In this document: positions 3,232-36,348 of the stretch, piece by piece
Numbering within the stretch: the stretch's first letter is position 1
Layout of the letters: each line of letters opens with the position of its first letter
Origin: Solwaraspora sp. WMMD791
Lineage (GTDB): Bacteria > Actinomycetota > Actinomycetes > Mycobacteriales > Micromonosporaceae
Direction: 5' to 3'
DNA length: 64,000 nucleotides
Assembly (NCBI RefSeq): GCF_029581195.1
Contig: NZ_CP120737.1
Span: 2,767,001 to 2,831,000, forward strand
Notes under the pieces: model-generated
Told to the model about the DNA's origin: nothing
The model's database searches: none
What the model saw: only the letters and a program-made list of their open reading frames with translations
Position numbers and translations under genes: made by a program

Positions 3232-3379
3232 ACAAGTAACGCAGATCGGAGAGATCAATTCTACGGGCTGTGGACAACTCGCACTCGCCACCTTCGTGGA
3301 ATTTCCACGGCCCTCAGCTGACGAATAGCATCCAGCGCTTCGGGAACTCCGTACCGGATAGCTCTTTACCTGCGGCACC

Positions 3380-3934
3380 ATGCCATGCATGGACGACATG
3401 AGCATCGACGGACTGGCACCGGTCACGGTGATACGCAACGGTGAGATACGTGCAGCGGGACGGCGGCTCGACGACGTCATCGTCTACGACTGGGGCTTCC
3501 AACTCAACGGACGGCACCACGAGCAGCGCAGCTACGTCCTGCTCGATGACGGATTCCAGATCAACCAGCCGGTGATCTTTCCACCGGCACAGCAAGGGTG
3601 GTGGTACTGCGACCTGGTCCGGGTGTCAGGCACCGACACCGAGATCGTCGTCGACGACCTCTGGATCGACGTCATCGTCGGACCACCCGACCATCCCTAC
3701 CGGGTGCTCGACCTCGACGAGTACGCCGCAGCGGCCCAGGATGGCGCGTTGACGCCGGCCGAGGCGGCCGACGGGCTCGTCCGTACTCAACGTTTTCTCG
3801 ACCGCCGGCTGAACCGACGTCACGAGACCCTGCGCACCTGGCCCGACTTCCCGCCGGAAACCGTCACCACGCTCGCCGCCCTGCGTTTCGAACGTCGCTG
3901 GACCCGTCTCACCGGACTACCCGAGTGGGCTTGA
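3380..3934 (+). CDS. DUF402 family protein
   Basis: The 184-residue product belongs to the DUF402 family. Characterised relatives such as FomD hydrolyse nucleoside di- or cytidylyl-phosphate substrates with divalent metal. The core reads GWWYCDLVRV and LWIDVIVGPPDHPYRVLDLDE, matching the conserved tryptophan-tyrosine and acidic metal-binding stretches. Three in-frame ATGs (3380, 3389, 3398) are possible starts; none has a strong ribosome site. It is divergent from the XRE regulator. The physiological substrate is unknown. Confidence 0.8.
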   Translation: MPCMDDMSIDGLAPVTVIRNGEIRAAGRRLDDVIVYDWGFQLNGRHHEQRSYVLLDDGFQINQPVIFPPAQQGWWYCDLVRVSGTDTEIVVDDLWIDVIVGPPDHPYRVLDLDEYAAAAQDGALTPAEAADGLVRTQRFLDRRLNRRHETLRTWPDFPPETVTTLAALRFERRWTRLTGLPEWA

Positions 3935-4456: not shown

Positions 4457-7400
4457 GTGCTGATCACGGACGGGCCCAACGGCGAGAAACACCTGCTCGA
4501 TGTGCTGATCGCAGCCGCCGACACCGCCCCCGATCAGACGATCACGCACGTACGCGGAGACGGGGCCGAACGCGTCGTCACGCACCGACAGCTGCGCGAC
4601 GAGGCGCTGAAGGTCGCCGGTGGGCTGCACGAGGCAGGGATTGCGGCCGGCACACCGGTGATCCTGCTGGCCGATGCCGGCGACGACTTCCAGCCGATGT
4701 TCTGGGGCGCGCTGGCGGCCGGGCTGGTGCCCGTACCGCTGCCGGCGGAACCGACCCGGGTGGCCGGCGTGCGTGACCTGCTCGGCGGCGTACCGGTGAT
4801 CGTCGACGACGCCTGCGCCCCGGTCGCGCAAGCAGCCGACGCGCCGGCGCTGCACCTCGCCACCCTACGGGCCGACGGGCGGACGCCGCGTCGGCTGCCG
4901 GCACCCGACCCTGACGAACCCGCGTTCCTGCAGTTCTCCTCCGGCAGCACCGGCACCCCGCGGGGCGTCGAACTGCGGCACCGCAACGTGCTGGCCAACC
5001 TGCGGCAGATCGGCCAGGCCGCCGCACTGACCGCCGACGACGTCTCGGTGAGCTGGATGCCGTACTTCCACGACATGGGGTTGATCGGCACCCACCTGGC
5101 GCCGCTGGCCGCCCGGCTGCGGCAGGTCCGGATCGGCCCGCTGACGTTCGCGAAACGGCCGCTGCTGTGGTTCAGCGTCGCGCACCGGCACCGGGCCACG
5201 CTGCTGTCGGCCGCCAACTTCGCCCTCGCCCTGGCCGTCCGGCGGGTGCCGGCCGAGGCTCTGGCCGGGCTGGACCTGAGCGCCGTACGGCTGATGATGG
5301 TCGGCGCGGAGCCGATCTCGCCGGTGGTGTGGCGGGCGTTCGTCGAACGGACCCGGCCCGCCGGGCTCGACCCGGCCGCACTGCAACCGGTGTACGGGCT
5401 GGCCGAGGCGACCCTTGCCGTCACCGTCCCGCCGCTGGGCGAAACCGCCGTACCGGTGCGGGTGGACCGGGCGGCGCTCGCCGCCGGCACGGTGCAGCCG
5501 GCCGGCGAGGGCGACCCGGGCGCGGTGGGGTTCATGGACGTCGGGCTGCCGGTGCCCGGCTGCCAGGTACGCATCGTCGACGACGCCGGCAACGTCGTCG
5601 GAGGCGACGGAGCCAGCCAGCTCGTCGGAGCCGACGAGGCCGGCCGGGACCTCGGTGACAGCCGGGTCGGCCGGATCGAGGTACGCGGCCCGAATGTGGC
5701 AGCCGGCTATCACGGTGATCCGGCGGCGACCGCCGAGGTGTTCGTGGACGGTTGGCTGCGTACCGGTGATCTGGGTTTTTTGCGCGACGGCCGGCTCTGC
5801 GTGACCGGCCGGTCGAAGGACGTGGTCTTCGTCAACGGGCGCACCTTCCACGCCGCCGACCTGGAGGAGGTCGTCGCCGGCACGGCCGGGCTGCCGTCGG
5901 GGCGGGTCGCGGTGCTCGGCTGCACCGACCATGCAAGTGGCGCCGAGCGGATCGTGGTGTTCGTGCAGTGGGCCGGCACCATGGCGCCCTCAGCCGACGT
6001 CGCCGCGGTGTTGGCGCAGGTGGCGGCCCGGATAGTGGCGGCCACCGGGCACGACCAGGTACGGGTGCTGCCGGTGCCGCCCGGGGCGTTCCCGCGTACC
6101 ACCAGCGGCAAGCTGCGCCGTCCTCTGCTGCGCCAGCGGTACGCCGCCGGTGACTTCGCCGCCGTCGAGCAACGCTGGGCACCCTCTCCGCTGCCGCCAT
6201 CACCCGCTCAAGATCCCGACGATCTTGCACTTATCGTTGAACAATCCGGACAAAAGTTCGCGATAACTGCAAGATCGTCGGGGAGGTGGGGGGCGGCGAG
6301 GAGCCGCGACGAGGTGGAGCAGGTCGTGCGGGCAGTGTGGGCGAAGGTGCTGCGCCGACCCGCCGACGAGATCGGGTTGCACGACCGGTTCACCACGCTG
6401 GGCGGTTCGTCACTGCAGGCGATGGAGGTGCTGGCCGGGCTTGAGGACGCCTTCGGCCGCGAACTCGACCCGGCCGAGCTGCGGGAACGGGCGACAGTGG
6501 CGGCGCTGGTCGACCATCTGCTCACCCCGGGGGACGACGCGAACGGCAGGACGAGGCACCCGGCGGGCGGCGCGGCTCAGGGGGTGGCGGACGGCGCAGC
6601 CGCCGAGGTCCCTACCCGGTCGGGAGATGAGGTGGCGGTCGTCGGGTTGGCCTGCCGGTTCCCCGGTGCGGACAGCCCCGACGAGTTCTGGCGGCAACTG
6701 CTCGACGGGCGCGACAGCGTGAGCGAGATCCCGGCGCAGCGCTGGCAGCAGGACATCGGCACCGCCCGCTGGGGGGCGTTCCTCGACGACCCGGCCGGCT
6801 TCGACGCCGACTTCTTCGGCATGTCCGACACCGACGCCGACCACACCGACCCGCACGCCCGGATCTTCCTGGAGCTGGCACACGAGGCGTTGGAACGCGC
6901 CGGGTACGCCGGGCCGCGCCGGCACGGCCGCCGGGTCGGGGTGTTCGCGGCGGTCGGCGAGAGCGGCTACGCCGAACTGCTGCGCGCGCAACCGGAGAGT
7001 GCCACCCACCCGGCCGCGCTGGTCGGCAACCTGCGCAACCTGATCCCGGCGCGCGTCGCGCAGGCCCTCGACCTGACCGGGCCGGCGATCGCGGTCGACA
7101 CCGCCTGTTCGTCGGCGCTGGTCGCGCTGCATCTGGCGGTCCGCAGCCTGCGCGACGGCGAATGCGATCTGGCCGTGGTCGGCGGGGTCAACCTCAACCT
7201 GACGCCGACCGGGCACCGGCTGCTCGCCGCCGCCGGGGCGCTGTCGGCCACCGGCCGGTGCCGGGTCTTCGACGCCGCCGCCGACGGGTTCGTGCCCGGC
7301 GAGGGCGGGGCCGCGCTGGTCCTGGCCCGCGCCGCCGACGCCCGCGCCGCCGGGGACGAACTTCTTGCCCTGGTACGCGGGACCGCCGTCAACAACGACG

Positions 7401-10400
7401 GCCGCTCGCTGAGTCTGCTGGCCCCGAACCCGTTGCGCCAAGGGGAAGTGATCACCGACGCGTACCGGGACAACGGCGTCGACCCGACCATGGTGTCCTA
7501 CATAGAGGCACACGGGACGGGTACGGAGCTGGGCGACCCGGTCGAGGTACGGTCGTTGGCGTACGCCTTCCCGCCGCGCCCCGACGGCCGGCCCCGGCTA
7601 CTCGGCTCGGTCAAGTCGAACCTCGGCCATCTGCTCAACGCCGCCGGGATGCCGGCCCTGGTCAAGGTGATCCTGGCGCTGCGGCACCGGCAACTGCCGC
7701 CGTCGCTGCACGTCGAGACTCCGTCGCCCCGGCTCGACCTGGCCGGCGCCGGATTCGAGGTGGTGACCGGCGCACGGGACTGGGTCGGCGACGGTCCGTT
7801 GACCGCCGGGGTGAACGCGTTCGGGTTCGGCGGCACCAACGCGCACGCGATCCTGCAGGAAGCCGATCCGGCACCAGCACCCCAGCAGGCCGGTCCGGCA
7901 CCGCAGCAGGCTGCCGGGGCGGCCAGTGCCGGGCCGTACCTGGTGACCTGCTCGGCGGCGACCGAGGCCGCGTTACGGCAGTCGCTGCGGGACCTCGCCG
8001 CCCACCTCGACGCGCATCCGCAGCTGGATCCCGGCGGTGTCTGCGCCACCGTGAACACCGCCCGCGGCGACCGGCCGCACCGGGTCGCCGTCGTCGCCGA
8101 CAGCACCGCCGGGCTCGCCGCCGCGTTGGCCGCCGCCGCGTCCGGCCCGGTCACCGAGGTGGTACGCCGGCCGCGTACCGCCGTGGTGTCGCTCGACGAC
8201 ACGGCCGACGGCGAGACCGGTCCGGCGGCGGTCTGCCGGCGGCTCGCCGACTGGGGCGTGGTGCCCGACGCCGTCGTCGGTGGCGGTGCCGACCAACTGC
8301 GGGCACTGCTCGACCAGGGTTACGACGTGCTGCTCGGCGTCGACGCGCACCGGCTGACCCTGGCCGTACGCGAGGCGTCGCCGGAGTCGGCCGACCGGGT
8401 CGAGGTGCTGTCGGTGCCGCCGCCCGACGACGACGGCGGGCTGACCGGGCTGGTCGGGGCGTTGTGGCAGCGCGGGGTCGCCGTCGACCGGGTCCGGACG
8501 TCCGGTGGTCGGCGGCGGATCGCCGTACCGACGTACCCGTTCCAGCGGCGCCGACACTGGCTACCGGAGACCACCCGCGACGAGCTGGTCCATCAGGTGC
8601 GCTGGTCGCCACTGCCACTGCCACTGCCAGCGCCGGCCGGCCGCTCCCCCGCCTCGGTGCACCTGACCGGGCTGGACAGGGCGCTCGGCGGCCCGCTGGC
8701 GGCCGGACTTCGCGACCGGCTGGCCGCCGACGGGGTCGAGATTGCCACCGGGACCGGTGACGCCGAGGTCGTCGTGTACCTGGCCAGCGGCGACCCGTTC
8801 GACGTCGACGACGGCGTGGCCGGGCTGGACGCGGCCGTCGACGCCACGCTGCACGGTGTGACGGGGCTGGTCGCCGCGCTGCCCGAGCACGGTTTCCGGC
8901 TGCTGGTGATCACCCACGACGCGGTCTGCACCGGGGTGACCGGTGAACGACCGGATCCGGTGCAGAGCCTGGTCACCGGGCTGTCGGCGGCGCTCGCCGA
9001 CGAACACCCCGACAGTGTGGTGTCCGGGATGGACCTGTCGAGCGCCGATGACCTACCGACCCGGATCGATGCGCTGGCCGCCGAGCTGGCGACCATGGAG
9101 GCATCACCAGACCCGGCAGCGGTGGAGTCGCGGCTGGTGGCGTGGCGGGCCGGCCAGCGGCTGGGCCGCCGACTCGTCCCCGCCGCGCCGATCAGCGGCG
9201 AGTCCGCCGCCGGCAATCCGAGCGGCGAGGAGCCGACGGACCCGGTCGACGCCGACGGCGTACAGCTGATCGTCGGAGGCGCCGGTGGCGTCGGCGCCGC
9301 GCTCGCCGCGGACCTGGCCGCACGCGGACACCGCCGGATCGTGCTCGCCGGCCGCGCCACCGCCGCACCGGACGGGCTGGTCGACCGGCTGCGGGCCCTC
9401 GGCGCGCGGGTCGACTACCGCCGCTGCGACATCACCGACGCCGCCGACGTCGACGCGCTGATCGCCGGACTGCCCGACCTCGCCGGGGTGTTCCACGCCG
9501 CCGGCGTGGTCCGGCCGGGCCCGCTGCGGTCGAGGTCCGTGGCGCAGCTGCAGGCCGTGCTGGCGCCGAAGGTACGCGGCGGCCATCTGCTGGTCCAGGC
9601 GCTGCGCCGGTACGGTCGACGCCCGGCGACCGTGGTGGCGTTCACCTCGGTCAGCGCGCTGCTGCCCGGACTCGCCGGGGCGGTCGGCGACTACGCCGCC
9701 GCCAACGCCTTCCTGGACACGTACGCCACTGTCGAGCAGGCTGCTGGCCGGCCGCTGCGTACCGTCGGGTTCTCGGCCCTGGCCGACGCGGGGATGGCGG
9801 CTCATCCGGCGCTCGCGGCGCGGTTGGCCGCCCGGGGCCTGCCGGCGTTGCCGTTCTACGACGCCCTGCCGGCGCTGCGGTCGGCGCTGCGCCGACCCGC
9901 CGACGCCCACCTGGTCGTCGCCCGGCTGACCGCCGCGAACGCGACTGCGCCCGTCGCCGCGGTGACCGCCGGGCCGCAGGCGGTGCCGAGCGGTGACGCA
10001 GGTCGGCAGGTCCACACTCCGGGCGAGATCAGGGACATGCTGCGGCGGCTGCTAGCCGACGCGCTGGACTGCGATCCGGCGCGGATCGACGACGACACGC
10101 CGTTTCTCTCCCTCGGCCTGGACTCGCTCACCGCCATCGACCTGGTCAAGACCCTCGAAGGCGAACTCGGCCGGCCGTTGCCGACCATGCTGCTGTTCGA
10201 GCACGGCACCATCGCCGCGCTCGTCGACCGGCTCGCCGATCCGCCACCGCAGCCGTCTGCGGTTACCCCGCCGGCCGACGGCGGCGCGGAACCGTTCGCG
10301 TTGTCCGGGGTGCAGCGGGCATTCCACACACTGCACCGGCTCTACCCGCACGTGGCCGCGTACGGGTTCGTCCGGCACGCCGTCACCGGGCCGCTCGACG

Positions 10401-13400
10401 CCGACCTGCTCGGGCAGGCCCTCGACCAGCTGCCGCACCGGCACCCGATGCTGCGGATGCGGTGGGTCGACGGCGACGGCGACGCGACGCCCCGCCAGCT
10501 GATCGGCCCGCCGACACCACTGACCGACTGGTACGCCGTCCACGACGCCGGCCAAGCTGGCGGTGACGGTGACGTCGACGCGCTGACCGAACGGCTGTGC
10601 AACGAGCCGATCGACCTGACCTGCCGGCCGCCGCTGCGGGCCGTGCTGATCCGTACCGGTCCCGCCGACGCCCAACTGCTGCTGGTGCTGCACCACGCCG
10701 CCGGCGACGGCGCCAGCCTGAGTGTGCTCAGCGAGGAGCTGTGGCAGGTGTACGGGGCGCTGGCCGCCGGCCGCGTACCGCAGTTGCCGCCGGTGCCGAC
10801 GACGTTTCGCGACCACTTGGCCGCTGCCGCCCCGGCGTCTGCGGAGGACCTGGCCTTCTGGCGGGAGACCCTGGCTGCGTGGCCGGCCGGGCTGCGGCTG
10901 CCGTGGCGTGACCCGGCCGCACCGCCCGCGCCGCCGTACGCGGCCCATCGGGTCAGCGTCGATCCGCCGACGGTGGCCGCGTTGACCCGGGTGGCCGCCG
11001 CCGCGCGGGTGTCGCTGTTCCACCTGCTGCTCGCCGGGTACGCCCGGTGCCTGGCCCGCGCCACCGGGCAGCGCATCGTCACCGTGTCGGTGGCGCGGGC
11101 CGGCCGCGACGCCCGCCTGCCCGGCGTCGACCGGGTCGTCGGACCGTTCGCCGACACCCTGCCGCTGACGGTCGACGTCGACCCGGCCGAGCCGGCGGTC
11201 GACCTCGCCCACCGGGTCCTGGCCGCCTGGCTGGTCGCGCAGCGGCACGGCACGGTGGACGCGGTCGACCTGGCGCGGGCGACGCCGCGACCTGACGACC
11301 CCGCTGGTGGCGGCGTTGGCGGCCGGCCGGTCACCGCGAGCCCGGCCAGTTTCAGCTTCGCCCGTTTCCCGGTCGTGTCCGACGCCGACCTTCCGGTACG
11401 GGTGTCGCCGGTCGCCGCCGGCACCGCGTCGGCCGGCACCCGGCTGGGGCTGCTCTGCTGGCAGGACGGTGAACGACTGCGGTTCGCCTGGAACCATCCG
11501 GTGGCGTCGCTGGACCGGGCAACGGTGGCCGGGCTGGCCGCCGAGTTCCTCGCCGAGCTGGCTGACCTGGCCAAGCTGGCTGAATCGACGTCTGCGGAGT
11601 CCGTTGAGGGCGCGTCGCCGTCGGTGGTGGAGCGGATCGGGCAGGTGTGCCGCCGGCACGCCGACGCGGTCGCCGTCGAGTCCGGCCCGGTACGGATGAC
11701 GTACCGGCAGTTGGACGGCGCCGCCGACCGGGTCGCCGCCGCGCTGCGCCGCACCGGGGTCCGCGCCGGTGACCTGGTCGGGCTGCTCGCCGCGCGCGGC
11801 CCGGCCGCCGTCGCCGCCGTCGTCGGGGTGCTGCGCGCCGGGGCCGGCTGGGTGCCGCTGGACCTCGCCCACCCGCCGGCCCGCCACCGCGACCAGCTGC
11901 GGCGTGCCGGCGTACGGGTGCTGCTGCATGACGCGGCGTCCACCGTGCTGGCCGACGCGCTGGACGATGCGCAGGCCGGGCTGAGGGCGGTCGACATCGA
12001 CACGATCATCGCCAACGAGACCACTGTCGAGCCGGTGGCAGACGGCGCGGCCGCCGCCGACCCGGACGGTACGGCGTACGTCATCTTCACCTCCGGATCG
12101 ACCGGCCGGCCGAAGGGTGTGCCGGTCAGCCACCGGTCGATGGCGAACTACCTGCGGTGGGCGGTCGACACGTTCGGCTACCACAGCGGTGACCGGCTGG
12201 CGCAGACGTCGTCGTGGTGCTTCGACGCCTCGGTCCGGCAACTGCTGGCACCGCTGCTGGTCGGGGCGACGGTCGTCGTCCTGGATCAGCGGCTGCTGCG
12301 CGACCCCGATGAGGTGCTGCGCCGCGTCGAACACGACCGGATCACGGTCTGGAGTTCGGTGCCGACCCTGTGGAGCCAGCTGCTGGCGGCGGCGCGGCGG
12401 CGTACCGCCTCGGGCGGGCGACCGGACCTGTCGGCGCTGCGCTGGATCCACGTCGGCGGCGAGGCACTGCCTCCCGGGCAGGTACGCGGCTGGTTCGACC
12501 TGTTCGGCCCCGGGCACCGGATCACCAACCTGTACGGGCCGACCGAGGCGACCATCAACGCCGCCTGGTTCCTGATCGACCGGCGGCCCGCCGACGGCCT
12601 GCGGCGGGTGCCGATCGGCCGGCCGGTGGCCGGTGCGACCCTCGCCGTCGTCGACGCCGACGGGCGGGCCTGCCCGCCAGGAGCCGCCGGCGAGCTGCAG
12701 ATCGCCGGCCCCGGGTTGACCAGCGGCTATCTGGACGATCCGGAGCAGACTCAGGCGGCGTTCGTCCACCGCGACGGCCGGCGCTGGTACCGCAGCGGCG
12801 ACCGGGCCCGCGTCGGCCCCACCGGTGACCTGGAGTTCCTCGGTCGGCTCGACGACCAGGTGAAGCTGCACGGCCACCGGATCGAGCCGGGTGAGATCGA
12901 AGCGGCGCTGAGCGACCATCCGGCGGTCAGCGGCGCGGCGGTGCTGCACCAGGCGACGCCGTACTCCCGGCTCATCGCGTTCGTGCAACTGGCCGGCGAC
13001 GTCGCCGACGACCCGACGCCGGTGACGGCCGGCGACCCGACGATCGCCGCCGCGCTGCGCCGGCATCTCGCGGACCGGCTGCCGCCGCAGTGGGTGCCGG
13101 CCCGGATCCGACCGGTACGGGCACTGCCGCTGACCGCCACCGGCAAGGTGGACCGGCACCTGCTGGCCGGGCTGCTCGACGACGAGCCGGACCCGGTCGC
13201 CGGCGGAGCGCCGTCGCCCGACGACGGGCAGGTGCCGGGCGCTGGCGACGAGCCGCTGCCGAAGGCTGGTGCGGGGCCGCGTACCAGCACCGAACGGCAG
13301 GTGGCGCAGGTGTGGCAGGCGGTGCTCGGGGTGCCGACCGTGCACCGCGACGACGACTTCTTCGCTCTCGGCGGTGACTCGATCGTGGCGATCGAGGTCT

Positions 13401-16060
13401 TCGCCCGGTTGCGGGAGCGGTTCCCGGCCGCGCCCGGCCCGGCCGTCATCTACGACCACCGGACCCTGGCCGGACTGGCCGCCGCGATCGACACGGCCAC
13501 ATCGGGATCCGAGACGGCACCGGACGCGGCACCGGAACCGGAACCGGCACCGGCGGTCGACGCGTACGATCCGCGGCCGTTTCCGCTGTCTGCGGCACAG
13601 CGGGGGTTCCTGCTCGCCGAGGCCGCCGCGCCGGGCAGCAGTTCGACCTGGCTGGCCCGGCTGCGGCTGGCCGGTCGGCTGGACCGGCGACGGTTCCAAC
13701 GGGCCGTCGACAGCGTCGTGGCCCGGCATCCGATGCTGCGGACGGTGTTCCCCGCCGGGGCACGGCCGCCGGTGCAGCAGGAGCTGCCGGCGACGCTGCG
13801 GCTACCGGTGCGGTTCGAGCGCGTCGAGTCGGCCGCGCGGGTCGCGGACCTGGTGGCGCGGGAACGGCAGCGGCCGGTGGAGCCGTGGTCCTGGCCGTTG
13901 CTGCGGCTGCTGGTGCTGACGCTCACCCCGGACGAGCATGTCCTGGTGGTGCACGCGCACCACCTGATCGGCGACGGCTACAGCGCCGCGCTGCTCGGTC
14001 AGGAACTGCTGGCCCGGTACGACGATCCGGCCACCGGCGCGGCGGCACCACCCCGGACCACGTTCCGCGACTACGTCGACTGGCTGCACCGCCAGGTGCC
14101 CGATCCGGTGGCGCTGCGCTGGTGGCGGGAGCGGTTCGCCTCGCCGTACCGGCCGCCGACGCTGCGTGCGTCCACCGCCGACGGTGGCGCGCGGGCCCGC
14201 ACCGGCGGGTTCACCCTGGACGGTACGGTCGCCGCCGGGCTGCGCCGGCTGGCCGCAGCGGCGGGCACCACCGGGTACGCGCCGGTGCTCACCGCGTACC
14301 ACCGGGGGTTGGTCCGGCTGACCGGCCAGGGTGACCTGGTGGTCGGGCTGACCGTGACCGGCCGCGACCACCCGCTGCCGGACCTGCACCGGCTGTTCGG
14401 CCCGTGCGCGGTGCTGCTACCGCTGCGGCTCACCGACACTGCCCGGTCGGGTGACGCCGGGCCAGGTGACGGCAGGTCGGGTGACGGCGGGTTCGGCGCC
14501 GACCTGGCGCGGGTGGCCGCCGAGGTGGCCGCCGGCCGCCGGCACGGGCCCGACAGTGTCCCGGCCAGCGTCGACGGCGGCCCGTCCGCGCTGCTCGGGG
14601 CCCAGTTCATCTTCAGCTCGTTGGACTTCACCGGGCTCGGACCGACGGCCGCCGGAGGGTTGACCGTCGAGCCGGACGACACCGACAGTGAGCTGGAGCC
14701 ACCGCCGGTCGGCACCGACGTCCTGCTGACGGTCCGGCCGGTCGGCGACGGGCTGCGGGTCTTCGTACGGGCCGCGTCGGCGGCGATGGACGCCGACCGC
14801 CTCGCCGGCTTCGTCGCCGCGATCGAAGCCGACCTGATCAGCGCCGCCGTGGGCACCGACCGGGCCGACACCGACCGGGCCGCCGGCACGACCGGCCCCG
14901 ACCGGGTGACCAGCGTCGGCACCGCGTTGGACGCGGCGATCGTCGGCTACCTGCCGGCACCGGCGCAGCTGGCCGCGCTGGCCGGGATGTCAGCGGTCGA
15001 GCTGCCCCGCGAGCGGATCCGGGAGCTGCTGTTCCCGACCGGGGCACCCCGGCTGCTGGAGGAGCTGGTCACCCCGTTCGGCCGGTCCGGGTTCGTCTGC
15101 CTGCCGGTGTTCGCCGACGAGCTCGGCCCGGATCTGGCACCGGTGACCGCCGACGCGGTCCGGCTCGCGGCGCGGGCGGGTGCCCGGTGCGTGTCGATGG
15201 CCGGCATGCTGCCGTCGGTCACCGGCTACGGCTTCGACGTGGTCCGGCAGGTCGGCTCGGCGGTCCGGGTGACGACCGGACACGCGGCCACCGCCACCTC
15301 GGTGGTGCTGACCACGCTCGCCGCGCTGGCGGCTGCCGGCCGTGACCTGACCGCCGGCCCGTTGGCCGTCGTCGGCCTGGGTTCGATCGGCCGGTCGGCG
15401 GTGGAGCTGCTGCTGCGCCACGGCGGGCCACACCCGCCCCGGATCGTGCTGGCGGACCTGCCGGCGAGCCGGCAGCGGCTGGCCGACTACCCGGACCGGC
15501 TGCGCCGGCTGGGGTTCCGTGGCGAGCTGGTCTGGGCCGACTCGACCCCGGCCGTCGCGCCGGCCGTGTACGCGGCGGCGACGATCGTGGCGGCGGTGAG
15601 CAGTCCGGCCGAGATCGTCGACGTCGACCTGCTGCGGCCGGGTACGGTGCTGGTCGACGACTCGTTCCCGTACTGCGTCGACCCGGGCGCGGCGCTGGAC
15701 CGGATGCGCCGCGACGGCGACGTGCTGGTGGTCGGTGGTGGCCTGCTCACCTGCGGTACGGTGCGGCGGCTGCTGCCCGCCGGGTTGCCGCCCGTCGCGG
15801 TGGCCGGGTACGCCGCCCGGGGCGCCTTGCCGGACGCGGTGGCGTCCTGCCAGGTGGAGTCGCTGCTACAGGCGGCACGGCCGGAGCTGCCACTGGTACA
15901 CGGTCTGGTGCGGGCGGAGTTGGCGGCGGCGTACTGGTCGGCGGCCCGGGCGGTGGGGATCACGGCGGCACCGTTGCATCTGGCGGGCACACCGGTCGCC
16001 GACCTCGTCGCCGGCCGGTTGGGGCGTCGGCGGGCGTTGGGGCAAGGAGGACGGACATGA
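4457..16060 (+). CDS. FAAL-PKS-NRPS hybrid megasynthase with AAR-like terminal reductase
   Basis: This 3867-residue protein should build a lipopeptide-like product. Domains by residue: fatty acyl-AMP ligase 1-573 (FSSGSTGTPRG, WMPYFHDMGLIG, TSGKLRR); carrier 615-693 (S652); ketosynthase 725-1135 (C884, H1019, H1058); a decayed acyltransferase remnant 1135-1368; ketoreductase about 1380-1830 (GGAGGVGAA, Ser/Tyr/Asn in the GDYAAAN region); carrier 1856-1930 (S1890); condensation 1942-2394 (H2080, D2084); adenylation 2395-2906; carrier 2945-3011 (S2975); second condensation 3034-3480 (H3169, D3173); and a Rossmann reductase 3493-3867. The last domain resembles acyl-ACP reductase. No thioesterase is present. 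Stachelhaus positions read roughly D-A-R-S-I-V-L-I-N, which I cannot assign. The missing AT implies malonyl loading in trans. Confidence 0.9.
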   Translation: MLITDGPNGEKHLLDVLIAAADTAPDQTITHVRGDGAERVVTHRQLRDEALKVAGGLHEAGIAAGTPVILLADAGDDFQPMFWGALAAGLVPVPLPAEPTRVAGVRDLLGGVPVIVDDACAPVAQAADAPALHLATLRADGRTPRRLPAPDPDEPAFLQFSSGSTGTPRGVELRHRNVLANLRQIGQAAALTADDVSVSWMPYFHDMGLIGTHLAPLAARLRQVRIGPLTFAKRPLLWFSVAHRHRATLLSAANFALALAVRRVPAEALAGLDLSAVRLMMVGAEPISPVVWRAFVERTRPAGLDPAALQPVYGLAEATLAVTVPPLGETAVPVRVDRAALAAGTVQPAGEGDPGAVGFMDVGLPVPGCQVRIVDDAGNVVGGDGASQLVGADEAGRDLGDSRVGRIEVRGPNVAAGYHGDPAATAEVFVDGWLRTGDLGFLRDGRLCVTGRSKDVVFVNGRTFHAADLEEVVAGTAGLPSGRVAVLGCTDHASGAERIVVFVQWAGTMAPSADVAAVLAQVAARIVAATGHDQVRVLPVPPGAFPRTTSGKLRRPLLRQRYAAGDFAAVEQRWAPSPLPPSPAQDPDDLALIVEQSGQKFAITARSSGRWGAARSRDEVEQVVRAVWAKVLRRPADEIGLHDRFTTLGGSSLQAMEVLAGLEDAFGRELDPAELRERATVAALVDHLLTPGDDANGRTRHPAGGAAQGVADGAAAEVPTRSGDEVAVVGLACRFPGADSPDEFWRQLLDGRDSVSEIPAQRWQQDIGTARWGAFLDDPAGFDADFFGMSDTDADHTDPHARIFLELAHEALERAGYAGPRRHGRRVGVFAAVGESGYAELLRAQPESATHPAALVGNLRNLIPARVAQALDLTGPAIAVDTACSSALVALHLAVRSLRDGECDLAVVGGVNLNLTPTGHRLLAAAGALSATGRCRVFDAAADGFVPGEGGAALVLARAADARAAGDELLALVRGTAVNNDGRSLSLLAPNPLRQGEVITDAYRDNGVDPTMVSYIEAHGTGTELGDPVEVRSLAYAFPPRPDGRPRLLGSVKSNLGHLLNAAGMPALVKVILALRHRQLPPSLHVETPSPRLDLAGAGFEVVTGARDWVGDGPLTAGVNAFGFGGTNAHAILQEADPAPAPQQAGPAPQQAAGAASAGPYLVTCSAATEAALRQSLRDLAAHLDAHPQLDPGGVCATVNTARGDRPHRVAVVADSTAGLAAALAAAASGPVTEVVRRPRTAVVSLDDTADGETGPAAVCRRLADWGVVPDAVVGGGADQLRALLDQGYDVLLGVDAHRLTLAVREASPESADRVEVLSVPPPDDDGGLTGLVGALWQRGVAVDRVRTSGGRRRIAVPTYPFQRRRHWLPETTRDELVHQVRWSPLPLPLPAPAGRSPASVHLTGLDRALGGPLAAGLRDRLAADGVEIATGTGDAEVVVYLASGDPFDVDDGVAGLDAAVDATLHGVTGLVAALPEHGFRLLVITHDAVCTGVTGERPDPVQSLVTGLSAALADEHPDSVVSGMDLSSADDLPTRIDALAAELATMEASPDPAAVESRLVAWRAGQRLGRRLVPAAPISGESAAGNPSGEEPTDPVDADGVQLIVGGAGGVGAALAADLAARGHRRIVLAGRATAAPDGLVDRLRALGARVDYRRCDITDAADVDALIAGLPDLAGVFHAAGVVRPGPLRSRSVAQLQAVLAPKVRGGHLLVQALRRYGRRPATVVAFTSVSALLPGLAGAVGDYAAANAFLDTYATVEQAAGRPLRTVGFSALADAGMAAHPALAARLAARGLPALPFYDALPALRSALRRPADAHLVVARLTAANATAPVAAVTAGPQAVPSGDAGRQVHTPGEIRDMLRRLLADALDCDPARIDDDTPFLSLGLDSLTAIDLVKTLEGELGRPLPTMLLFEHGTIAALVDRLADPPPQPSAVTPPADGGAEPFALSGVQRAFHTLHRLYPHVAAYGFVRHAVTGPLDADLLGQALDQLPHRHPMLRMRWVDGDGDATPRQLIGPPTPLTDWYAVHDAGQAGGDGDVDALTERLCNEPIDLTCRPPLRAVLIRTGPADAQLLLVLHHAAGDGASLSVLSEELWQVYGALAAGRVPQLPPVPTTFRDHLAAAAPASAEDLAFWRETLAAWPAGLRLPWRDPAAPPAPPYAAHRVSVDPPTVAALTRVAAAARVSLFHLLLAGYARCLARATGQRIVTVSVARAGRDARLPGVDRVVGPFADTLPLTVDVDPAEPAVDLAHRVLAAWLVAQRHGTVDAVDLARATPRPDDPAGGGVGGRPVTASPASFSFARFPVVSDADLPVRVSPVAAGTASAGTRLGLLCWQDGERLRFAWNHPVASLDRATVAGLAAEFLAELADLAKLAESTSAESVEGASPSVVERIGQVCRRHADAVAVESGPVRMTYRQLDGAADRVAAALRRTGVRAGDLVGLLAARGPAAVAAVVGVLRAGAGWVPLDLAHPPARHRDQLRRAGVRVLLHDAASTVLADALDDAQAGLRAVDIDTIIANETTVEPVADGAAAADPDGTAYVIFTSGSTGRPKGVPVSHRSMANYLRWAVDTFGYHSGDRLAQTSSWCFDASVRQLLAPLLVGATVVVLDQRLLRDPDEVLRRVEHDRITVWSSVPTLWSQLLAAARRRTASGGRPDLSALRWIHVGGEALPPGQVRGWFDLFGPGHRITNLYGPTEATINAAWFLIDRRPADGLRRVPIGRPVAGATLAVVDADGRACPPGAAGELQIAGPGLTSGYLDDPEQTQAAFVHRDGRRWYRSGDRARVGPTGDLEFLGRLDDQVKLHGHRIEPGEIEAALSDHPAVSGAAVLHQATPYSRLIAFVQLAGDVADDPTPVTAGDPTIAAALRRHLADRLPPQWVPARIRPVRALPLTATGKVDRHLLAGLLDDEPDPVAGGAPSPDDGQVPGAGDEPLPKAGAGPRTSTERQVAQVWQAVLGVPTVHRDDDFFALGGDSIVAIEVFARLRERFPAAPGPAVIYDHRTLAGLAAAIDTATSGSETAPDAAPEPEPAPAVDAYDPRPFPLSAAQRGFLLAEAAAPGSSSTWLARLRLAGRLDRRRFQRAVDSVVARHPMLRTVFPAGARPPVQQELPATLRLPVRFERVESAARVADLVARERQRPVEPWSWPLLRLLVLTLTPDEHVLVVHAHHLIGDGYSAALLGQELLARYDDPATGAAAPPRTTFRDYVDWLHRQVPDPVALRWWRERFASPYRPPTLRASTADGGARARTGGFTLDGTVAAGLRRLAAAAGTTGYAPVLTAYHRGLVRLTGQGDLVVGLTVTGRDHPLPDLHRLFGPCAVLLPLRLTDTARSGDAGPGDGRSGDGGFGADLARVAAEVAAGRRHGPDSVPASVDGGPSALLGAQFIFSSLDFTGLGPTAAGGLTVEPDDTDSELEPPPVGTDVLLTVRPVGDGLRVFVRAASAAMDADRLAGFVAAIEADLISAAVGTDRADTDRAAGTTGPDRVTSVGTALDAAIVGYLPAPAQLAALAGMSAVELPRERIRELLFPTGAPRLLEELVTPFGRSGFVCLPVFADELGPDLAPVTADAVRLAARAGARCVSMAGMLPSVTGYGFDVVRQVGSAVRVTTGHAATATSVVLTTLAALAAAGRDLTAGPLAVVGLGSIGRSAVELLLRHGGPHPPRIVLADLPASRQRLADYPDRLRRLGFRGELVWADSTPAVAPAVYAAATIVAAVSSPAEIVDVDLLRPGTVLVDDSFPYCVDPGAALDRMRRDGDVLVVGGGLLTCGTVRRLLPAGLPPVAVAGYAARGALPDAVASCQVESLLQAARPELPLVHGLVRAELAAAYWSAARAVGITAAPLHLAGTPVADLVAGRLGRRRALGQGGRT
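6215..6282. repeat. inverted-repeat element inserted in frame between FAAL and ACP
   Basis: Arms at 6215-6236 and 6261-6282 are inverted repeats matching at 21 of 22 positions (core GACGATCTTGCA). The 24-base centre is clearly richer in A and T than the surrounding gene. The whole element is read through in frame as linker residues about 587-609. It looks like a short palindromic or MITE-like repeat that landed in the inter-domain linker without breaking the gene. Confidence 0.75.
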
Positions 16061-20128: not shown

Positions 20129-20883
20129 AGTTCCTCCACGGTGTAGGTGGTCGGGGTCGCGACGACAAGTCGGCGGTCCGGTACGGCGGTCCAACCCGGA
20201 TCGTCGTCGGTCGGTTCGGAGGCGACGACGATCCGGTCCGGGTCGGCCCGGACGGCCAGGGTGTGGCCGACGGTGCTGGCCCAGCCCTGTGCGCCGTCGG
20301 TGAGCAGCAGGTTGAGCCGGGACGCCGGGGCCACCGCGAGCACACCGGTGACGGTGTCGGCGATCGCCGCGGCGGGTGGCGTGCCGGCCCGCAGCCGGTG
20401 GCGCACCAGCGCCCACAGCAGCGCGGCGTCGGTGGGCGCGTCGAGGGTGAGCAGGTCGGTCACCGGCAGGGTGGCGGCAAGGTCGGCGACGCTGGCCGGC
20501 CAGCCGGCCACCACCCCGTTGTGGCTGAACAACCACCGGCCCTCGGTGAACGGGGCGCAGGCCGTCTCGACCACCGGCATCCCGGGGGTGGCCGAGCGGA
20601 CGGCGGCGAGCAGCGCGCCGGTGACGGTGGCCCGGGCCAGCTCGGGCAGGCTCTGGTCGGCCCAGATCGGTACGGCCCGGCGGTACCGGACCGGGTTGGC
20701 CCGGATGCCGGCGTCGGATCCGGTGCCGGCGTACCAGCCGATGCCGAACCCGTCGGCGTTGACCGTGCCACCGCCACGCATCTGCCGGGGTGCCCAGGAC
20801 TGGCGGTAGAGGCTGTGCGCCGGGTCGATCAGCAGCGTCGCCAGGCTCGCGGGTGGGCCCAGGTAGAGCTGGTGGCGGCACAC
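20107..20883 (-). CDS. egtC: gamma-glutamyl-hercynylcysteine sulfoxide hydrolase EgtC
   Basis: EgtC is a class-II glutamine amidotransferase-fold hydrolase that removes the gamma-glutamyl group from the EgtB product. With the GTG at 20883 the protein begins MCRHQLYLGPP, placing the nucleophilic cysteine at position 2 as required for an Ntn hydrolase. NADGFGIGWYAG and LFSHNGVVAGW are typical of the fold. Length is 258 residues. The start overlaps the TAG of egtB by one base. Longer in-frame extensions would bury Cys2 and were not used. Confidence 0.95.
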   Translation of the reverse strand: MCRHQLYLGPPASLATLLIDPAHSLYRQSWAPRQMRGGGTVNADGFGIGWYAGTGSDAGIRANPVRYRRAVPIWADQSLPELARATVTGALLAAVRSATPGMPVVETACAPFTEGRWLFSHNGVVAGWPASVADLAATLPVTDLLTLDAPTDAALLWALVRHRLRAGTPPAAAIADTVTGVLAVAPASRLNLLLTDGAQGWASTVGHTLAVRADPDRIVVASEPTDDDPGWTAVPDRRLVVATPTTYTVEELCGSTSH

Positions 20884-22187
20884 TAGGCGACCTCGCCGGG
20901 CAGCGGGTCCCGGGCGGTCCGGAAGCCACTGAAGATCTGCCGCCGGATCGGATAGTCCCAGTTGCGGAAGGTGCCCCGGCAGGCGGACCGGTCGGTGCCG
21001 AACGAGCCGCCACGCAGCACCCGGTAGTCGCGGCCGAAGAAGACCTGCGAATACTCCCGGTACGGGAAGGCGGTGAAACCGGGGTAACCGTCGAACCAGG
21101 TGTCGGTCCACTCCCACACGTCACCGATCAGCTGGTGCACCCCGGCCGGTGAGGCACCGGCCGGGTAGGCACCCACCGGGGCCGGGGACAGATGCCGCTG
21201 GCCCAGGTTGGCGTGCTCGGGGCGCGGATCGTCGTCGCCCCACGGGTAGCGGCGGGACCGGCCGGTGGACGGGTCGTACCGGGCGGCCTTCTCCCATTCG
21301 GCCTCGGTAGGCAACCGACGACCGGCCCAGTTCGCGTACGCCTGGGCCTCGTACCAGCTGACGTGCACCACCGGCTCGTCAGGCACGATCGCCGACCGTC
21401 GGCCGAACCGGGTGCAGCTGCCGTCGCCGTGCCAGTGCGCCGGCCCGGCGAGCGCGGCCCGCAGCCGGTGGGCCCAACCCTGCGGGCTCCACCATCGCTC
21501 GTCGTGGTAGCCGCCGTCGTCGATGAACCGCTGGTAGCGGGCATTGGTCACCGGTGCACGGTCGATGAAGAACGCCGGTACGTCGACCGGGTGCCCGGGG
21601 CGTTCGTTGTCCAGCGCCCACGGCTCGGTGGAGGTGCCCATGGTGAACGGCCCGGCGGGGACGAGTGCCTCGCCGTCGACCGGCCCGGCCGACGGCGGGG
21701 TGGGCGCGGCGGGGAGCACCGGCGGCCCGACCCGCAACTGGTGGGTGGCGAGCATCGTCTCGTCGTGCTGCTGCTCGTGCTGAACGATCATCCCGAAGGC
21801 GAAGCCCTGCTCGACCAGCGGCCGGCCGTCGAACGCCACCGTGTCGAGCAGGTCGAGGACCTTGTCCCGGACGGTACGGGTGTAGGCGCGCGCCTCGGTC
21901 GGATCCAGCAGCGGCAGCGCGGGGCGGTCGGCGCGGGCGTGTTTGAACGCGTCGTACAGGTGGTCGATGTCGGCGCGGACCGGATCCCGGCCGCCGACGT
22001 CGCGGACCAGCCAGAGCTCCTCCTGGTTGCCGATGTGAGCCAGATCCCAGACCAGCGGCGACATCAGTCGCGAATGCTGGCGGACCAGGTCGGCGTCGTC
22101 GACGGCGTCGGTGAGGGCGTTGCTGCGTCGCCGGGCGCGATCGAGGTCGTCGGCGAGTACGGCGCGTAGGTCGGTCGGTCCGGTCAC
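20883..22187 (-). CDS. egtB: hercynine oxygenase (sulfoxide synthase) EgtB
   Basis: EgtB is a non-haem iron enzyme that couples gamma-glutamylcysteine to hercynine with oxygen. The N-terminal DinB-like half contains the iron-binding HEQQHDETM motif, together with an upstream histidine in LVWDLAHIGNQEELWLVRD (read as WDLAHIGNQEELW). The C-terminal half is a formylglycine-generating-enzyme fold (PTEAEWEKAARYD, DVWEWT, RVLRGGSFGTD). Length is 434 residues. The GTG at 22187 overlaps the egtA stop in a GTGA arrangement. Confidence 0.95.
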   Translation of the reverse strand: MTGPTDLRAVLADDLDRARRRSNALTDAVDDADLVRQHSRLMSPLVWDLAHIGNQEELWLVRDVGGRDPVRADIDHLYDAFKHARADRPALPLLDPTEARAYTRTVRDKVLDLLDTVAFDGRPLVEQGFAFGMIVQHEQQHDETMLATHQLRVGPPVLPAAPTPPSAGPVDGEALVPAGPFTMGTSTEPWALDNERPGHPVDVPAFFIDRAPVTNARYQRFIDDGGYHDERWWSPQGWAHRLRAALAGPAHWHGDGSCTRFGRRSAIVPDEPVVHVSWYEAQAYANWAGRRLPTEAEWEKAARYDPSTGRSRRYPWGDDDPRPEHANLGQRHLSPAPVGAYPAGASPAGVHQLIGDVWEWTDTWFDGYPGFTAFPYREYSQVFFGRDYRVLRGGSFGTDRSACRGTFRNWDYPIRRQIFSGFRTARDPLPGEVA

Positions 22188-23455
22188 AGGTCCTCCTTCG
22201 GCAGCCGGCGACGCAGCGAGTGCCGGATCGTGGTGATGGTCGTGGCCGGCAGACCGGTGTCGACCAGGTGGTCGCAGGCGAGTGCGACGACGGCTCGGGC
22301 GGCGGTGGCCAGCGCCGGGTCGGCCAGACCGACGCGGGCGGCGTCGGCCCACCGGTCGGCGACCGGGGCGGCGTGGCGCCATGCGGCGCGCAGCGTCTCG
22401 TCGCGGGCGAACAGGCTGGCCAGTACGGCGACCGGCGCCAGCCAGTCGCCGGCCGGCTGGGCGTCGAGGTAGCGGATCTCCAGGTAGCCCTGCGGGCGTA
22501 CCGGTGGGAAGAGCGTGCTCAGGTGCAGCGACAGGTCGGCGTAGGTGGGCGGGCGGGGCAGGCCGCTGCGGATCCAGTCGCCGAACCCGACCCCGGCCGA
22601 TCGGGACCAGCCGGACCGCCCGTCGGCGATGAACAGCGGCGGGGTGTCCAGGACGCGACGGGTCCAGTCGGCCACCGGGTCCGCCGGCGGCTGTCCCGGT
22701 GCGACGGCGGCGGGCGGGGTGGTGCGGGCCGGGTCGAGGGTGAGCCAGGTCCGCATCCGGTGGGACACCCAGCCGGTGTCCCGGTCGGCGTACCGTGCGG
22801 AGTTGGCGAAGGTCGCCAGCAGCACCGGCCCGAGTGCGTGCGCGGCCGCCCAGCGCAGCGGCAGTTGGGCGGGGGTTCCGGCGTCGAGGCACACCTGCAG
22901 GCCGGCGGTGGCGCACATCATGGTCGCTCCGGCTGCGCCGTACCGGCCGAAGGCGTCGGCCATCGCGGTGTACCGGCGGTTGTGCAGGATGCGCCGGGGC
23001 GGCCGGTGGGGGTCGCAGCCGTGGGAGCCGAGCCGCAGGCCGGCCCGGGCTAGCCGGGCGTCGAGGGCGGCGGTGTCGGCGACGGCGTGCCGGTGCAGGT
23101 CGGCGACGGAGTCGACCGGCAGGCTGGAGATCTCCACCTGGCCGCCGGGCTCGACGGTGACCTGTCCGCCGTACGGCAGGGGCCGGTGCGGGCTGTCGCG
23201 TCGCAGGGTGGGTGGGGCGTGTTCGCCGAGCGCCCGGCCGAGGATCTCCGGGTCGAGTGGACGGGCGGGGTCGTCCACGTGGTGCACGGTCCATTCGAGT
23301 TCGACACCGACCCGCCGTGGTGGTCCGGTCTTGAAGCAGATCCGCCCGATGTGGCCGACGGCAGCGGACACGTCGGCGATGACTTCGTCGCCGTCGGCCG
23401 GCCGCACGGCGTCGGACAGGTGCAGGTGCTGCACTCCCACCCCTCCAATTGTCAC
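22184..23455 (-). CDS. egtA: glutamate-cysteine ligase EgtA
   Basis: EgtA is an ATP-dependent ligase of the GCS2 type that makes gamma-glutamylcysteine, the sulfur donor used by EgtB. The 423-residue protein shows GVELEWTVHHVDDP near the N-terminus, PYGGQVTVEPGGQVEISSLP in the ATP/glutamate region (read as VTVEPGGQVEISS) and RWAAAHALGPVLLATFANS. It is the first gene of the operon. egtE, the final C-S lyase, is not in the window, so another lyase must serve or the gene lies elsewhere. Confidence 0.93.
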   Translation of the reverse strand: MTIGGVGVQHLHLSDAVRPADGDEVIADVSAAVGHIGRICFKTGPPRRVGVELEWTVHHVDDPARPLDPEILGRALGEHAPPTLRRDSPHRPLPYGGQVTVEPGGQVEISSLPVDSVADLHRHAVADTAALDARLARAGLRLGSHGCDPHRPPRRILHNRRYTAMADAFGRYGAAGATMMCATAGLQVCLDAGTPAQLPLRWAAAHALGPVLLATFANSARYADRDTGWVSHRMRTWLTLDPARTTPPAAVAPGQPPADPVADWTRRVLDTPPLFIADGRSGWSRSAGVGFGDWIRSGLPRPPTYADLSLHLSTLFPPVRPQGYLEIRYLDAQPAGDWLAPVAVLASLFARDETLRAAWRHAAPVADRWADAARVGLADPALATAARAVVALACDHLVDTGLPATTITTIRHSLRRRLPKEDL

Positions 23456-23618
23456 CGTATGTGACGTTGTGACAACAGTTCATCCCACCCTAGCGGCAGG
23501 GTCCGACAATCGGCGCCCCGGCGACCGGACAGCACCGCTATCCAGCCCCGTGACCAGCACACCTCGGCAATATGGAAGTTCCCTCAGGAGTCCAGCGGTC
23601 GGCATTCTGATGAACATG

Positions 23619-24874: not shown

Positions 24875-24949
24875 CCGACTCAAGGGGTACCGGCCGCCGC
24901 GCCGGGGGTGCCGGCACCTGTCGGCACCCGTACCGGAATGGAGAAACTC

Positions 24950-25972
24950 ATGGCAGGCGTCATCGGCGCCGTTCGGCGGTTGGCTCTGGCGCCACCGCTG
25001 ACCGAGGTCACCTTCGCGCGCCGGGGCTTTCCCGGCGCGTCGGCACCGGCCGCCCGCCGGTTGGAGGCGGTCCCCCAGGCGGTGATCTGCGGCTTCGAAT
25101 GGGCCATCGACAGCACCGACCAGTGGGAGCTGGAACGTCGGCTGGAGCTGGTCGAGCAGGAGCTGCGGGGCTTCGCCTACGAAGGGGCGACGATGGCACT
25201 CACCGTACGGGACGTCACCGGCGCCCGGCGCGGCCGGCGCACCCGCGACCTGCTCACCGGCGGCGGCCGGCCGCACCTGCTGCTGGCGTACATCGGGATC
25301 GGGTTCGCGATGGCCAGGCTGCCCCGGCCGCTGTGGCGCAAGGTGCTGCCCGACCTGACCGGGCTGCCCTACCACCCGACCATGTCCTGGCTGGCGGTCG
25401 ACGGGCTCGGCTTCGACCGGGCGTACTTCCACACCCGACGCTGGGTCGTCGAGCAGCGCCAGCCCGCGCCCTACCCGTGGCTCGGCCGGCCCGACTACTT
25501 CGGCCGCGCCTTCGACCAGGGCATCGGCCGGGCACTGTGGTTCATCCACGGCGGTCAGCCGCAGGCGGTCGCCGCCGCCGTCGAGGAGTTCGCGCCGCCC
25601 CGGCGGGCGGATCTGTTCAGTGGTGTCGGGCTGGCGGCGACCTTCGCCGGCGGCGATCTCGACCTGCTACCGGAGCTGGCCGGCCCGTACCGCGCGGAGC
25701 TCGCCCAGGGCGCCGTGTTCGCCGCCAAGGCCCGCGCCGAGTCCGGCTTCGTGCCGGCCCACGTGGAGACCGCGACCCGGGTACTGACCGGGACGTCTGC
25801 CGCTGCCGCCGCCACGCTCGCCGACGAGGTCGCGGTGGCGGACACCGACGGTACGGGCGCCGACGGCACCCACTCGGGCGGTGCCCGGCCGGACGGCCCG
25901 CCGGCCTACGAGACATGGCGGCGACGCATACGGGAAAGATTTGCCCCTGGCCTGCGTTCGACCCACTACTGA
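24950..25972 (+). CDS. DUF1702 enediyne protein (UnbL type), copy 1
   Basis: This 340-residue protein belongs to DUF1702, the UnbL family found beside enediyne polyketide synthases. Its role in building the enediyne core from the polyene precursor is not established. Hallmarks are LRGFAYEGATM, LAYIGIGFAMARLPR, GLGFDRAYFHTRRWV, FDQGIGRALWFIHGG and RADLFSGVGLAATFAGG. I chose the ATG at 24950, which has GGAG seven bases upstream and gives the usual N-terminus; an ATG at 24938 and a GTG at 24908 are alternatives. A second copy follows. Confidence 0.88.
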   Translation: MAGVIGAVRRLALAPPLTEVTFARRGFPGASAPAARRLEAVPQAVICGFEWAIDSTDQWELERRLELVEQELRGFAYEGATMALTVRDVTGARRGRRTRDLLTGGGRPHLLLAYIGIGFAMARLPRPLWRKVLPDLTGLPYHPTMSWLAVDGLGFDRAYFHTRRWVVEQRQPAPYPWLGRPDYFGRAFDQGIGRALWFIHGGQPQAVAAAVEEFAPPRRADLFSGVGLAATFAGGDLDLLPELAGPYRAELAQGAVFAAKARAESGFVPAHVETATRVLTGTSAAAAATLADEVAVADTDGTGADGTHSGGARPDGPPAYETWRRRIRERFAPGLRSTHY

Positions 25973-26100
25973 ACAACAGGATCGGAGCAACACCAAGATA
26001 ACGGCTGTCACCGTCGACGGCCGGCTCACGCATGCCTATTTCGCATTGCCGAGCAATATCGGAGAAATTCCCCAACGGCGCATTTCCAAAGAAGGAATTC

Positions 26101-26132
26101 CGTCGCCCCGCTGGCCATGATACGGGGCGACG
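26101..26132 (+). terminator. hairpin between the two DUF1702 genes
   Basis: A perfect 10-base stem (CGTCGCCCCG at 26101-26110 with its complement at 26123-26132) encloses a 12-base loop. It lies in a 194-base gap that is locally AT-richer than its surroundings and holds no gene. It may attenuate or partly end transcription between the paralogues, or mark an operon boundary. Confidence 0.45.
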
Positions 26133-26166
26133 ACTGCCGTTCACCGAGGACAAGTGAGGGAGAGAG

Positions 26167-27141: not shown

Positions 27142-27144
27142 CCC

Positions 27145-35884: not shown

Positions 35885-35889
35885 GCCGG

Positions 35890-36327: not shown

Positions 36328-36348
36328 GCACGGAAGGAGGAGGACGAG

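Follow-up and report, generated by a model that had tools for sequence, protein, structure and literature searches.

What releases the product of a megasynthase in which a FAAL domain, a polyketide synthase (PKS) module and a non-ribosomal peptide synthetase (NRPS) module are all joined in one gene, and in which chemical form does the product leave? The question is raised by such a gene in a 64,000-nucleotide stretch of the genome of Solwaraspora sp. WMMD791, hereafter the window. An initial annotation of this DNA had seen a domain resembling the cyanobacterial acyl-ACP reductase (AAR) at the protein end and had proposed reductive release, as an aldehyde or similar. We consider it reasonably probable that the last 376 residues belong to the carmabin TAD type of off-loading domains, with the AAR fold, and that the acyl-amino acid would leave through them as a primary carboxamide. 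By analogy with its nearest kin, the bacterium is thus likely to release its acylated amino acid in amide form instead of as an aldehyde. The analysis itself shows the predicted fold, the kinship, a conserved cysteine, an NAD-type aspartate, the conserved domain set and purifying selection.

The terminal domain has the predicted AAR fold, with the carmabin TAD as nearest solved relative

The domain and the residues discussed below are located as follows.

14930-16057, plus strand: terminal TAD-type domain with AAR fold, residues 3492-3867
15281-15283, plus strand: His3609 of the TTGH motif; His in 28/28 TAD-type domains, Asn in 10/10 AAR/PigE-type domains
15455-15457, plus strand: Asp3667 after the second Rossmann strand; Asp in 28/28 TAD-type domains and in 0/10 of the AAR type, which have Gly, Ala or His
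15659-15664, plus strand: Asp3735-Ser3736 of VDDSxP; in 28/28 TAD-type and 0/10 AAR-type domains
15848-15850, plus strand: Cys3798, the nucleophile position, aligned with AAR Cys294, PigE Cys296 and carmabin TAD Cys2238

All motifs quoted in the initial annotation were present in the terminal domain, and its position at the protein end was confirmed. Neither a thioesterase nor PF07993, the thioester reductase of the short-chain dehydrogenase/reductase (SDR) type that had been named as the alternative to AAR, was among the 17 Pfam families of the megasynthase (E ≤ 0.1). Terminal R domains of the SDR type share with the terminal domain the position at the NRPS end and a dinucleotide site, but they gave no sequence match. 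Taken alone, the terminal 399 residues gave in Pfam only the weak Rossmann family PF03435 (E 0.013, below the family cut-off) and in NCBIfam the PigE model at 9e-10 (37.5 bits; model cut-off 850).

With the same 399 residues, phmmer found the PDB entries 9e4x and 9e4s ('Amino acid adenylation domain protein') at E ~1e-35 and PigE at 0.03. Five entries released in 2025 (9e4s, 9e4u, 9e4x, 9e50, 9e56) show the TAD of the carmabin pathway, and the domain kind is hence not unheard of in such proteins, as had been supposed initially; the terminal domain is a new host group and architecture for a recently solved kind of domain. Profile A1, made of four fused domains (the window, two Ornithinimicrobium, one Streptomyces), matched 9e4x/9e4s at 8e-57, PigE at 8e-6 and AAR at 9e-6. 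For the 25-row profile A4 these values were 2e-81, 4.5e-15 and 5.5e-7. A further profile, A2, contained eight AAR-like proteins of the same phylum, taken from 16 loci of which nine had a readable domain; it matched Synechococcus AAR at 3.4e-43, and hhalign aligned A1 with A2 at 98.9% (E 1.2e-17) over 285 columns. The overall predicted fold agrees with 9e4x and its sister entries (VIA-align) and with AAR. VIA-align only re-orders the matches of Foldseek, and the lack of an SDR-type R domain among its best 50 rows excludes nothing by itself. The AAR likeness first noted by eye was thus borne out by profiles, hhalign and predicted fold. Sequence identity of the terminal domain is 26-28% to the carmabin TAD and 18-20% to AAR.

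The genome, a single 6.93-Mb contig, contains one match to the terminal domain. It has no match to the AAR model TIGR04058 (cut-off 449.7 bits) at E ≤ 0.001; among 25 members of the domain group this model matched four at that threshold (best 1.2e-6), with the window not among the matches listed. The aldehyde-deformylating oxygenase (ADO) family PF11266, a feature of AAR-type systems, was not found in the genome either, the Synechococcus elongatus control being positive.

A conserved cysteine and residues that separate two groups

The AAR acyl-enzyme forms on Cys294 (PMC7089970), and PigE carries Cys296 at this position (PMC8341465). When A2 was aligned with AAR, the invariant Cys of (A/G)CxAE fell on the Cys of FACFAE, which is Cys294 by chain numbering; when A1 was aligned with A2, the same Cys fell on SCQVESLL of the window, i.e., on Cys3798. 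A joint alignment has Cys here in 38/38 rows. The residue is also present in all 22 aligned long proteins and in three further long relatives (L086, L087, L088). The initial annotation, in which the catalytic Cys appeared to be replaced by Thr or Val, had been read at GGGLLTC, a non-conserved stretch that lies about 30 residues before the actual position. The PYC/PHC cysteine (residue 3740) was ruled out as nucleophile, as it is lacking in 3/22 aligned proteins (L052-L054). The 22-protein alignment consists of the window and 21 relatives; L002 and L004 were included although their N-terminus is cut by the locus edge, and the partial L003, the standalone L063 and L062, which the motif filter missed, were excluded.

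The terminal domain shares the fold and the Cys294 position with cyanobacterial AAR (6jzq, 6jzu, 6jzy, 6jzz). It differs in having Asp after the second Rossmann strand, where AAR has Ala, and it reads TTGH and GLGSIG where AAR has TTGN and a GATGDIG-type NADPH loop. In contrast, the carmabin TAD has in common with the terminal domain the TTGH, the Asp after the second Rossmann strand and the DDS, along with the fold and the cysteine (Cys2238 corresponding to Cys3798). An Asp ending the second Rossmann strand usually signals NAD over NADP. Asp3667 is in line with the NAD and NADH PDB entries of the carmabin TAD, from which use of NAD(H) by the window's domain would be expected.

We calculated a tree of 38 domains, i.e., 23 from FAAL megasynthases, L062, three standalone proteins, 9e4x and 10 of the AAR/PigE type. 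The 28 TAD-type rows group on one side with a support of 100/99, and the SH-aLRT of this branch was 99 and 100 when AAR, or PigE together with the longest standalone row, was left out. For the branch leading to the FAAL class, support was 98/97 with all domains and 97 and 89 with these rows left out; a long-branch warning was issued by the tree program. Common to all 38 rows, besides Cys3798, are Gly3608, Thr3612, Asp3734 and Pro3738.

AAR-like domains serve natural-product pathways in PigE (4ppm), TamH and KecF as well. Aldehyde formation has been studied for PigE and TamH; KecF is a predicted case (PMC6498172). A large part of the terminal domain can be aligned with PigE, which has its Cys at the same place but carries, at the positions that separate TAD from AAR, the residues of the AAR group. 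Moreover, the reductase domains of PigE, TamH and KecF are fused to pyridoxal phosphate-dependent (class III) transaminases, a fusion that the megasynthase lacks.

Probable release as amide and alternative products

For HcaD and VatR, a domain that follows the PCP in place of a thioesterase was proposed to off-load by terminal amidation, i.e., ammonolysis, and carmabin A is listed among the products of terminal amidation in the same hectoramide B paper (PMC10949194). Carmabin A bears a C-terminal amide (PMC6164609). The carmabin TAD, VatR and HcaD are from another bacterial group, the carmabin TAD being the terminal domain of a cyanobacterial NRPS, and the window has FAAL, PKS and NRPS in one gene. 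The megasynthase has its TAD-type domain at the protein end, with no thioesterase match, but a C domain separates this domain from the PCP; L062 has the order C-A-PCP-TAD.

We propose the following course. The FAAL would activate a fatty or other carboxylic acid, the KS would extend the acyl chain once with a malonyl unit supplied by an acyltransferase (AT) in trans, and the KR would reduce the extended chain. C-A-PCP would then join it to one amino acid, and the acyl-aminoacyl thioester would pass to the terminal domain. Here, the acyl group may pass from the phosphopantetheine arm to Cys3798, forming a thioester beside bound NAD(H). This thioester could be attacked by ammonia, giving the amide, or by hydride, giving the aldehyde; we favor the amide because the nearest kin is amide-linked and the TAD residues are fixed. 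Acyl transfer to Cys3798 is predicted from homology to AAR and PigE, the amide product from carmabin, vatiamide and hectoramide, and the nitrogen source and the role of the second C domain are inferred too. The title of 9e56 names a Cys2238-dephospho-CoA disulfide, which suggests that a pantetheine-like arm reaches Cys2238 in the carmabin TAD. A second amine might be joined by the intact C2, which lies between PCP and TAD; alternatively, C2 may act on the carrier of the partner subunit.

Several points weigh against amide release. No more than 26-28% of the residues are identical with those of the carmabin TAD, and the domains of FAAL megasynthases form a clade of their own, so their chemistry may have changed. 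We read TAD as terminal amide domain, an expansion that the titles of the PDB entries do not give. In 2024, mechanism and enzymology of terminal amidation were described as unstudied (PMC10949194). Net amide formation is redox-free and leaves the bound NAD(H) without obvious use, and NADH dependence is reported for the aldehyde maker TamH (PMC9594044). Furthermore, a C domain separates PCP and TAD, which is not the arrangement described in VatR and HcaD, and the dN/dS of the terminal domain is above that of the KS in four of eight pairs.

The aldehyde route of the initial annotation, in which NAD(P)H would reduce the Cys3798 acyl-enzyme to an N-acyl amino aldehyde as in AAR, PigE and TamH, keeps the AAR fold in its favor. 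We now see it as the weaker option, possible yet doubtful, since the nearest solved kin stems from an amide-ending pathway and the 28 TAD-type rows differ from the 10 AAR/PigE rows at His3609, Asp3667 and Asp3735-Ser3736. Moreover, there was no transaminase family in the megasynthase or in the other window proteins scanned (8 + 10), and no ADO in the genome. Some other NAD(H)-linked reaction on the Cys- or PCP-bound chain, e.g., a four-electron reduction to an alcohol, or release and then cyclisation to an imine, the C domain adding a second amine, would account for a second C domain that is intact, with no carrier behind it, in the 22 aligned proteins. A related domain directly after the PCP in the two-gene NRPS L062 fits such a reaction as well, and its order indicates that the C domain is not required for the fusion as such. 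No sequence feature, however, indicates an alcohol, imine or like product, and C2 looks ordinary for a C domain by sequence. We consider this reading quite improbable.

A terminal domain that has become a relic without catalysis, or that serves another pathway in trans, seems the least credible option, and we rate it very improbable. Relics do occur in this protein, as the decayed AT demonstrates. The terminal domain, however, is found in 7/7 genomes of the genus, its cysteine is kept throughout the 38 rows, and over eight pairs its dN/dS is 0.20-0.35, compared with 0.18-0.29 for the KS, which is lower in four.

Unlikely, and put forward only tentatively, is a redox-neutral cycle in which the AAR-fold terminus amidates its own product on bound NAD(H), for which we see two possible routes. 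In one, the thioester would be reduced to an aldehyde, which captures ammonia and is re-oxidized to the amide by the same cofactor. In the other, an amino acid next to the Cys3798 thioester would lose ammonia with the help of NAD+, and the extra C domain would select the amine. An ancestral reductase might then have become an amide synthase via His3609, Asp3667 and Asp3735-Ser3736.

Terminal primary amide formation on assembly lines was an open question in 2024 (PMC10949194). The question becomes sharper now that amide-ending lines are seen to terminate in a reductase fold with NAD(H) bound, and the residues separating TAD from AAR offer a mutational handle on a reductase fold turned to amidation. 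Caution is advised in calling every AAR-like domain aldehyde-releasing. In open-licence PMC, we found among the matches listed, by title or abstract start, no paper devoted to megasynthases of this sort that end in a TAD or an AAR-like domain, and none describing 9e4x, which is weak evidence of absence.

Domain order of the megasynthase

The open reading frame at 4457-16060 and its Pfam and NCBIfam domain set confirm the fusion of the terminal domain to the end of a FAAL/PKS/NRPS protein.

4457-16060, plus strand: single-gene megasynthase, 3867 aa, GTG start; FAAL-ACP-KS-(AT remnant)-KR-ACP-C-A-PCP-C-TAD
4529-6166, plus strand: FAAL domain, residues ~25-570; NCBIfam PRK09192, 9.8e-132 at 30-567
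6299-6526, plus strand: ACP1, first carrier domain, residues ~615-690; PF00550, limits set by eye
6626-7717, plus strand: ketosynthase (KS), residues 724-1087; PF00109 at 1.2e-78, PF02801; active-site motif DTACSS in 22/22
8129-8554, plus strand: acyltransferase remnant, residues 1225-1366; without GHSxGE and FHS, post-AT linker YPFQRRRHW retained
8594-9781, plus strand: ketoreductase (KR) with structural half, residues ~1380-1775; PF08659, 2.1e-34 at 1601-1775
10022-10234, plus strand: ACP2, second carrier domain, residues 1856-1926 (Pfam 1862-1926); PF00550, GLDSL in 22/22
10289-11626, plus strand: condensation domain C1, residues ~1945-2390, HHAAGDG; PF00668 at 1948-2280, HHxxxDG in 22/22
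11639-13171, plus strand: adenylation domain, residues ~2395-2905; TIGR01733, 1.8e-156 (match 2397-2897)
13289-13501, plus strand: PCP, residues ~2945-3015, GGDSI; PF00550, GGDS in 22/22
13574-14896, plus strand: second condensation domain C2, residues ~3040-3480; second PF00668 stretch, HHLIGDG intact, HHxxxDG in 22/22

A search for other proteins with the same fusion, as suggested in the initial annotation, was successful, and the 22 long proteins including the window could be aligned through the motifs of KS, KR, ACP2, C1, A, PCP, C2 and TAD. Retained in all of them are the KS Cys, the KR Tyr and Asn, both HHxxxDG and the serines of ACP2 and PCP, and in none does a carrier follow C2, which sits between the PCP and the terminal domain. 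PF00550 matches three stretches of the megasynthase. By sequence, the solved kin of the FAAL domain are 6ulx/6ulw first and the fatty acyl-adenylate ligase 3pbk next, and C2 resembles ordinary C domains, with PvdL as best match. The adenylation specificity residues, read by eye, are D-A-R-S-(I/V)-V-L-I-N, to which we assign no substrate; this region is near-constant in the 22 proteins, the fourth position being unread in nine rows.

Loss of the acyltransferase

We compared the AT region of the window (8129-8554) with those of L002, L004, L005, L046-L061, L064 and L065. An intact AT with GHSxGE and FHS follows the KS in 10/22 proteins. The motifs are gone in the other 12, including all seven of the window's genus, with 132-249 residues left compared with 340-400. 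PF00698 still matches 16/22 proteins (E ≤ 0.001), the window not being one of them, and its residues 1225-1366 had no Pfam match at all at this threshold. The state of the AT changes three times on the KS tree, and at least two of these changes are forced by well-supported branches. As KS, KR and ACP2 are intact, malonyl loading would occur in trans; the genome contains six other PF00698 matches. The loss may be a snapshot of cis-AT lines turning trans-AT, as judged from these sequences.

Distribution and genomic context

At E ≤ 0.001, A1 matched 7/7 genomes of the window's genus and 30/200 of its family, own genome counted. The best match lies in an open frame of 3547-4484 residues in 27 of these 30, with a stop inside the match in G533 and G579; the other three are a 1501-residue C-A-PCP-TAD protein (G464), a 431-residue frame (G503) and a weak match (G532). 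In the phylum, 61/396 genomes matched, with only four fused. The non-fused matches are weaker, at best E 1.9e-17, and most lie in frames that are 360-440 residues long. Many of the short-frame matches in this phylum come from small genomes, which measure 0.8-2.8 Mb for the 16 loci L011-L026; the nine domains read among these are standalone, AAR-like and of the TTGN type. A4 at E ≤ 1e-10 found 11/394 genomes of the class including the window's own, ten with frames of 1935-4491 residues and one with a 402-residue frame. Among plasmid records there were two matches at E ≤ 1e-5, fused in Streptomyces (L005) and standalone in Pantoea (L006), and a third, weaker one, standalone in Streptomyces (L072). 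Phage records gave no match to the domain.

We compared the flanks of the window and 22 relatives, ~4-9 kb in most loci and downstream only in L002-L004, with open reading frames chosen by base composition. The commonest neighbour family is shared by 7/23 loci, of which six belong to the window's genus; the second commonest is found in five loci, all of that genus. With neighbours so scarcely shared, the megasynthase looks like a pathway in one gene. It is present as one gene in all seven genomes of the genus with no generally conserved helper, and the path from acid to product might thus need only this gene and an AT in trans.

Related domains were observed in other settings. In L062 (9173-13675, plus strand), a second, different C-A-PCP NRPS has a TAD-type C-terminus directly after the PCP, and next to it lie genes for a further C-A-PCP NRPS and for a flavin amine oxidoreductase. 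The Pantoea stewartii plasmid pCN101 (L006, 5291-20783) encodes a standalone TAD-type protein (9566-10855) whose neighbours in the row are genes for KS-AT-ACP, a luciferase-like monooxygenase and NRPSs; the following NRPS begins FAAL-like by eye. This place in a PKS/NRPS row raises the possibility of TADs working in trans. Two standalone proteins of the TAD type that are more distant are encoded in L072 (14707-15903), where genes for an acyl carrier protein and for a ketosynthase lie downstream, and in L085 (9543-10733).

Other genes of the window

On the plus strand, window 24908-38246 encodes a 1927-aa PKS (KS-AT-KR-DH) alongside two DUF1702 proteins, one ASPIC/UnbV FG-GAP protein, a 338-aa protein, a P450 and a flavin reductase. 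The region looks like an enediyne-type PKS cassette, DUF1702 and UnbV being presumably linked to enediynes; no NCBIfam enediyne model matched here. On the minus strand, 20883-23483 encodes an 866-aa protein with DinB and FGE-sulfatase domains and a long extra N-terminal part, a domain pairing that we take to be that of EgtB-like sulfoxide synthases.

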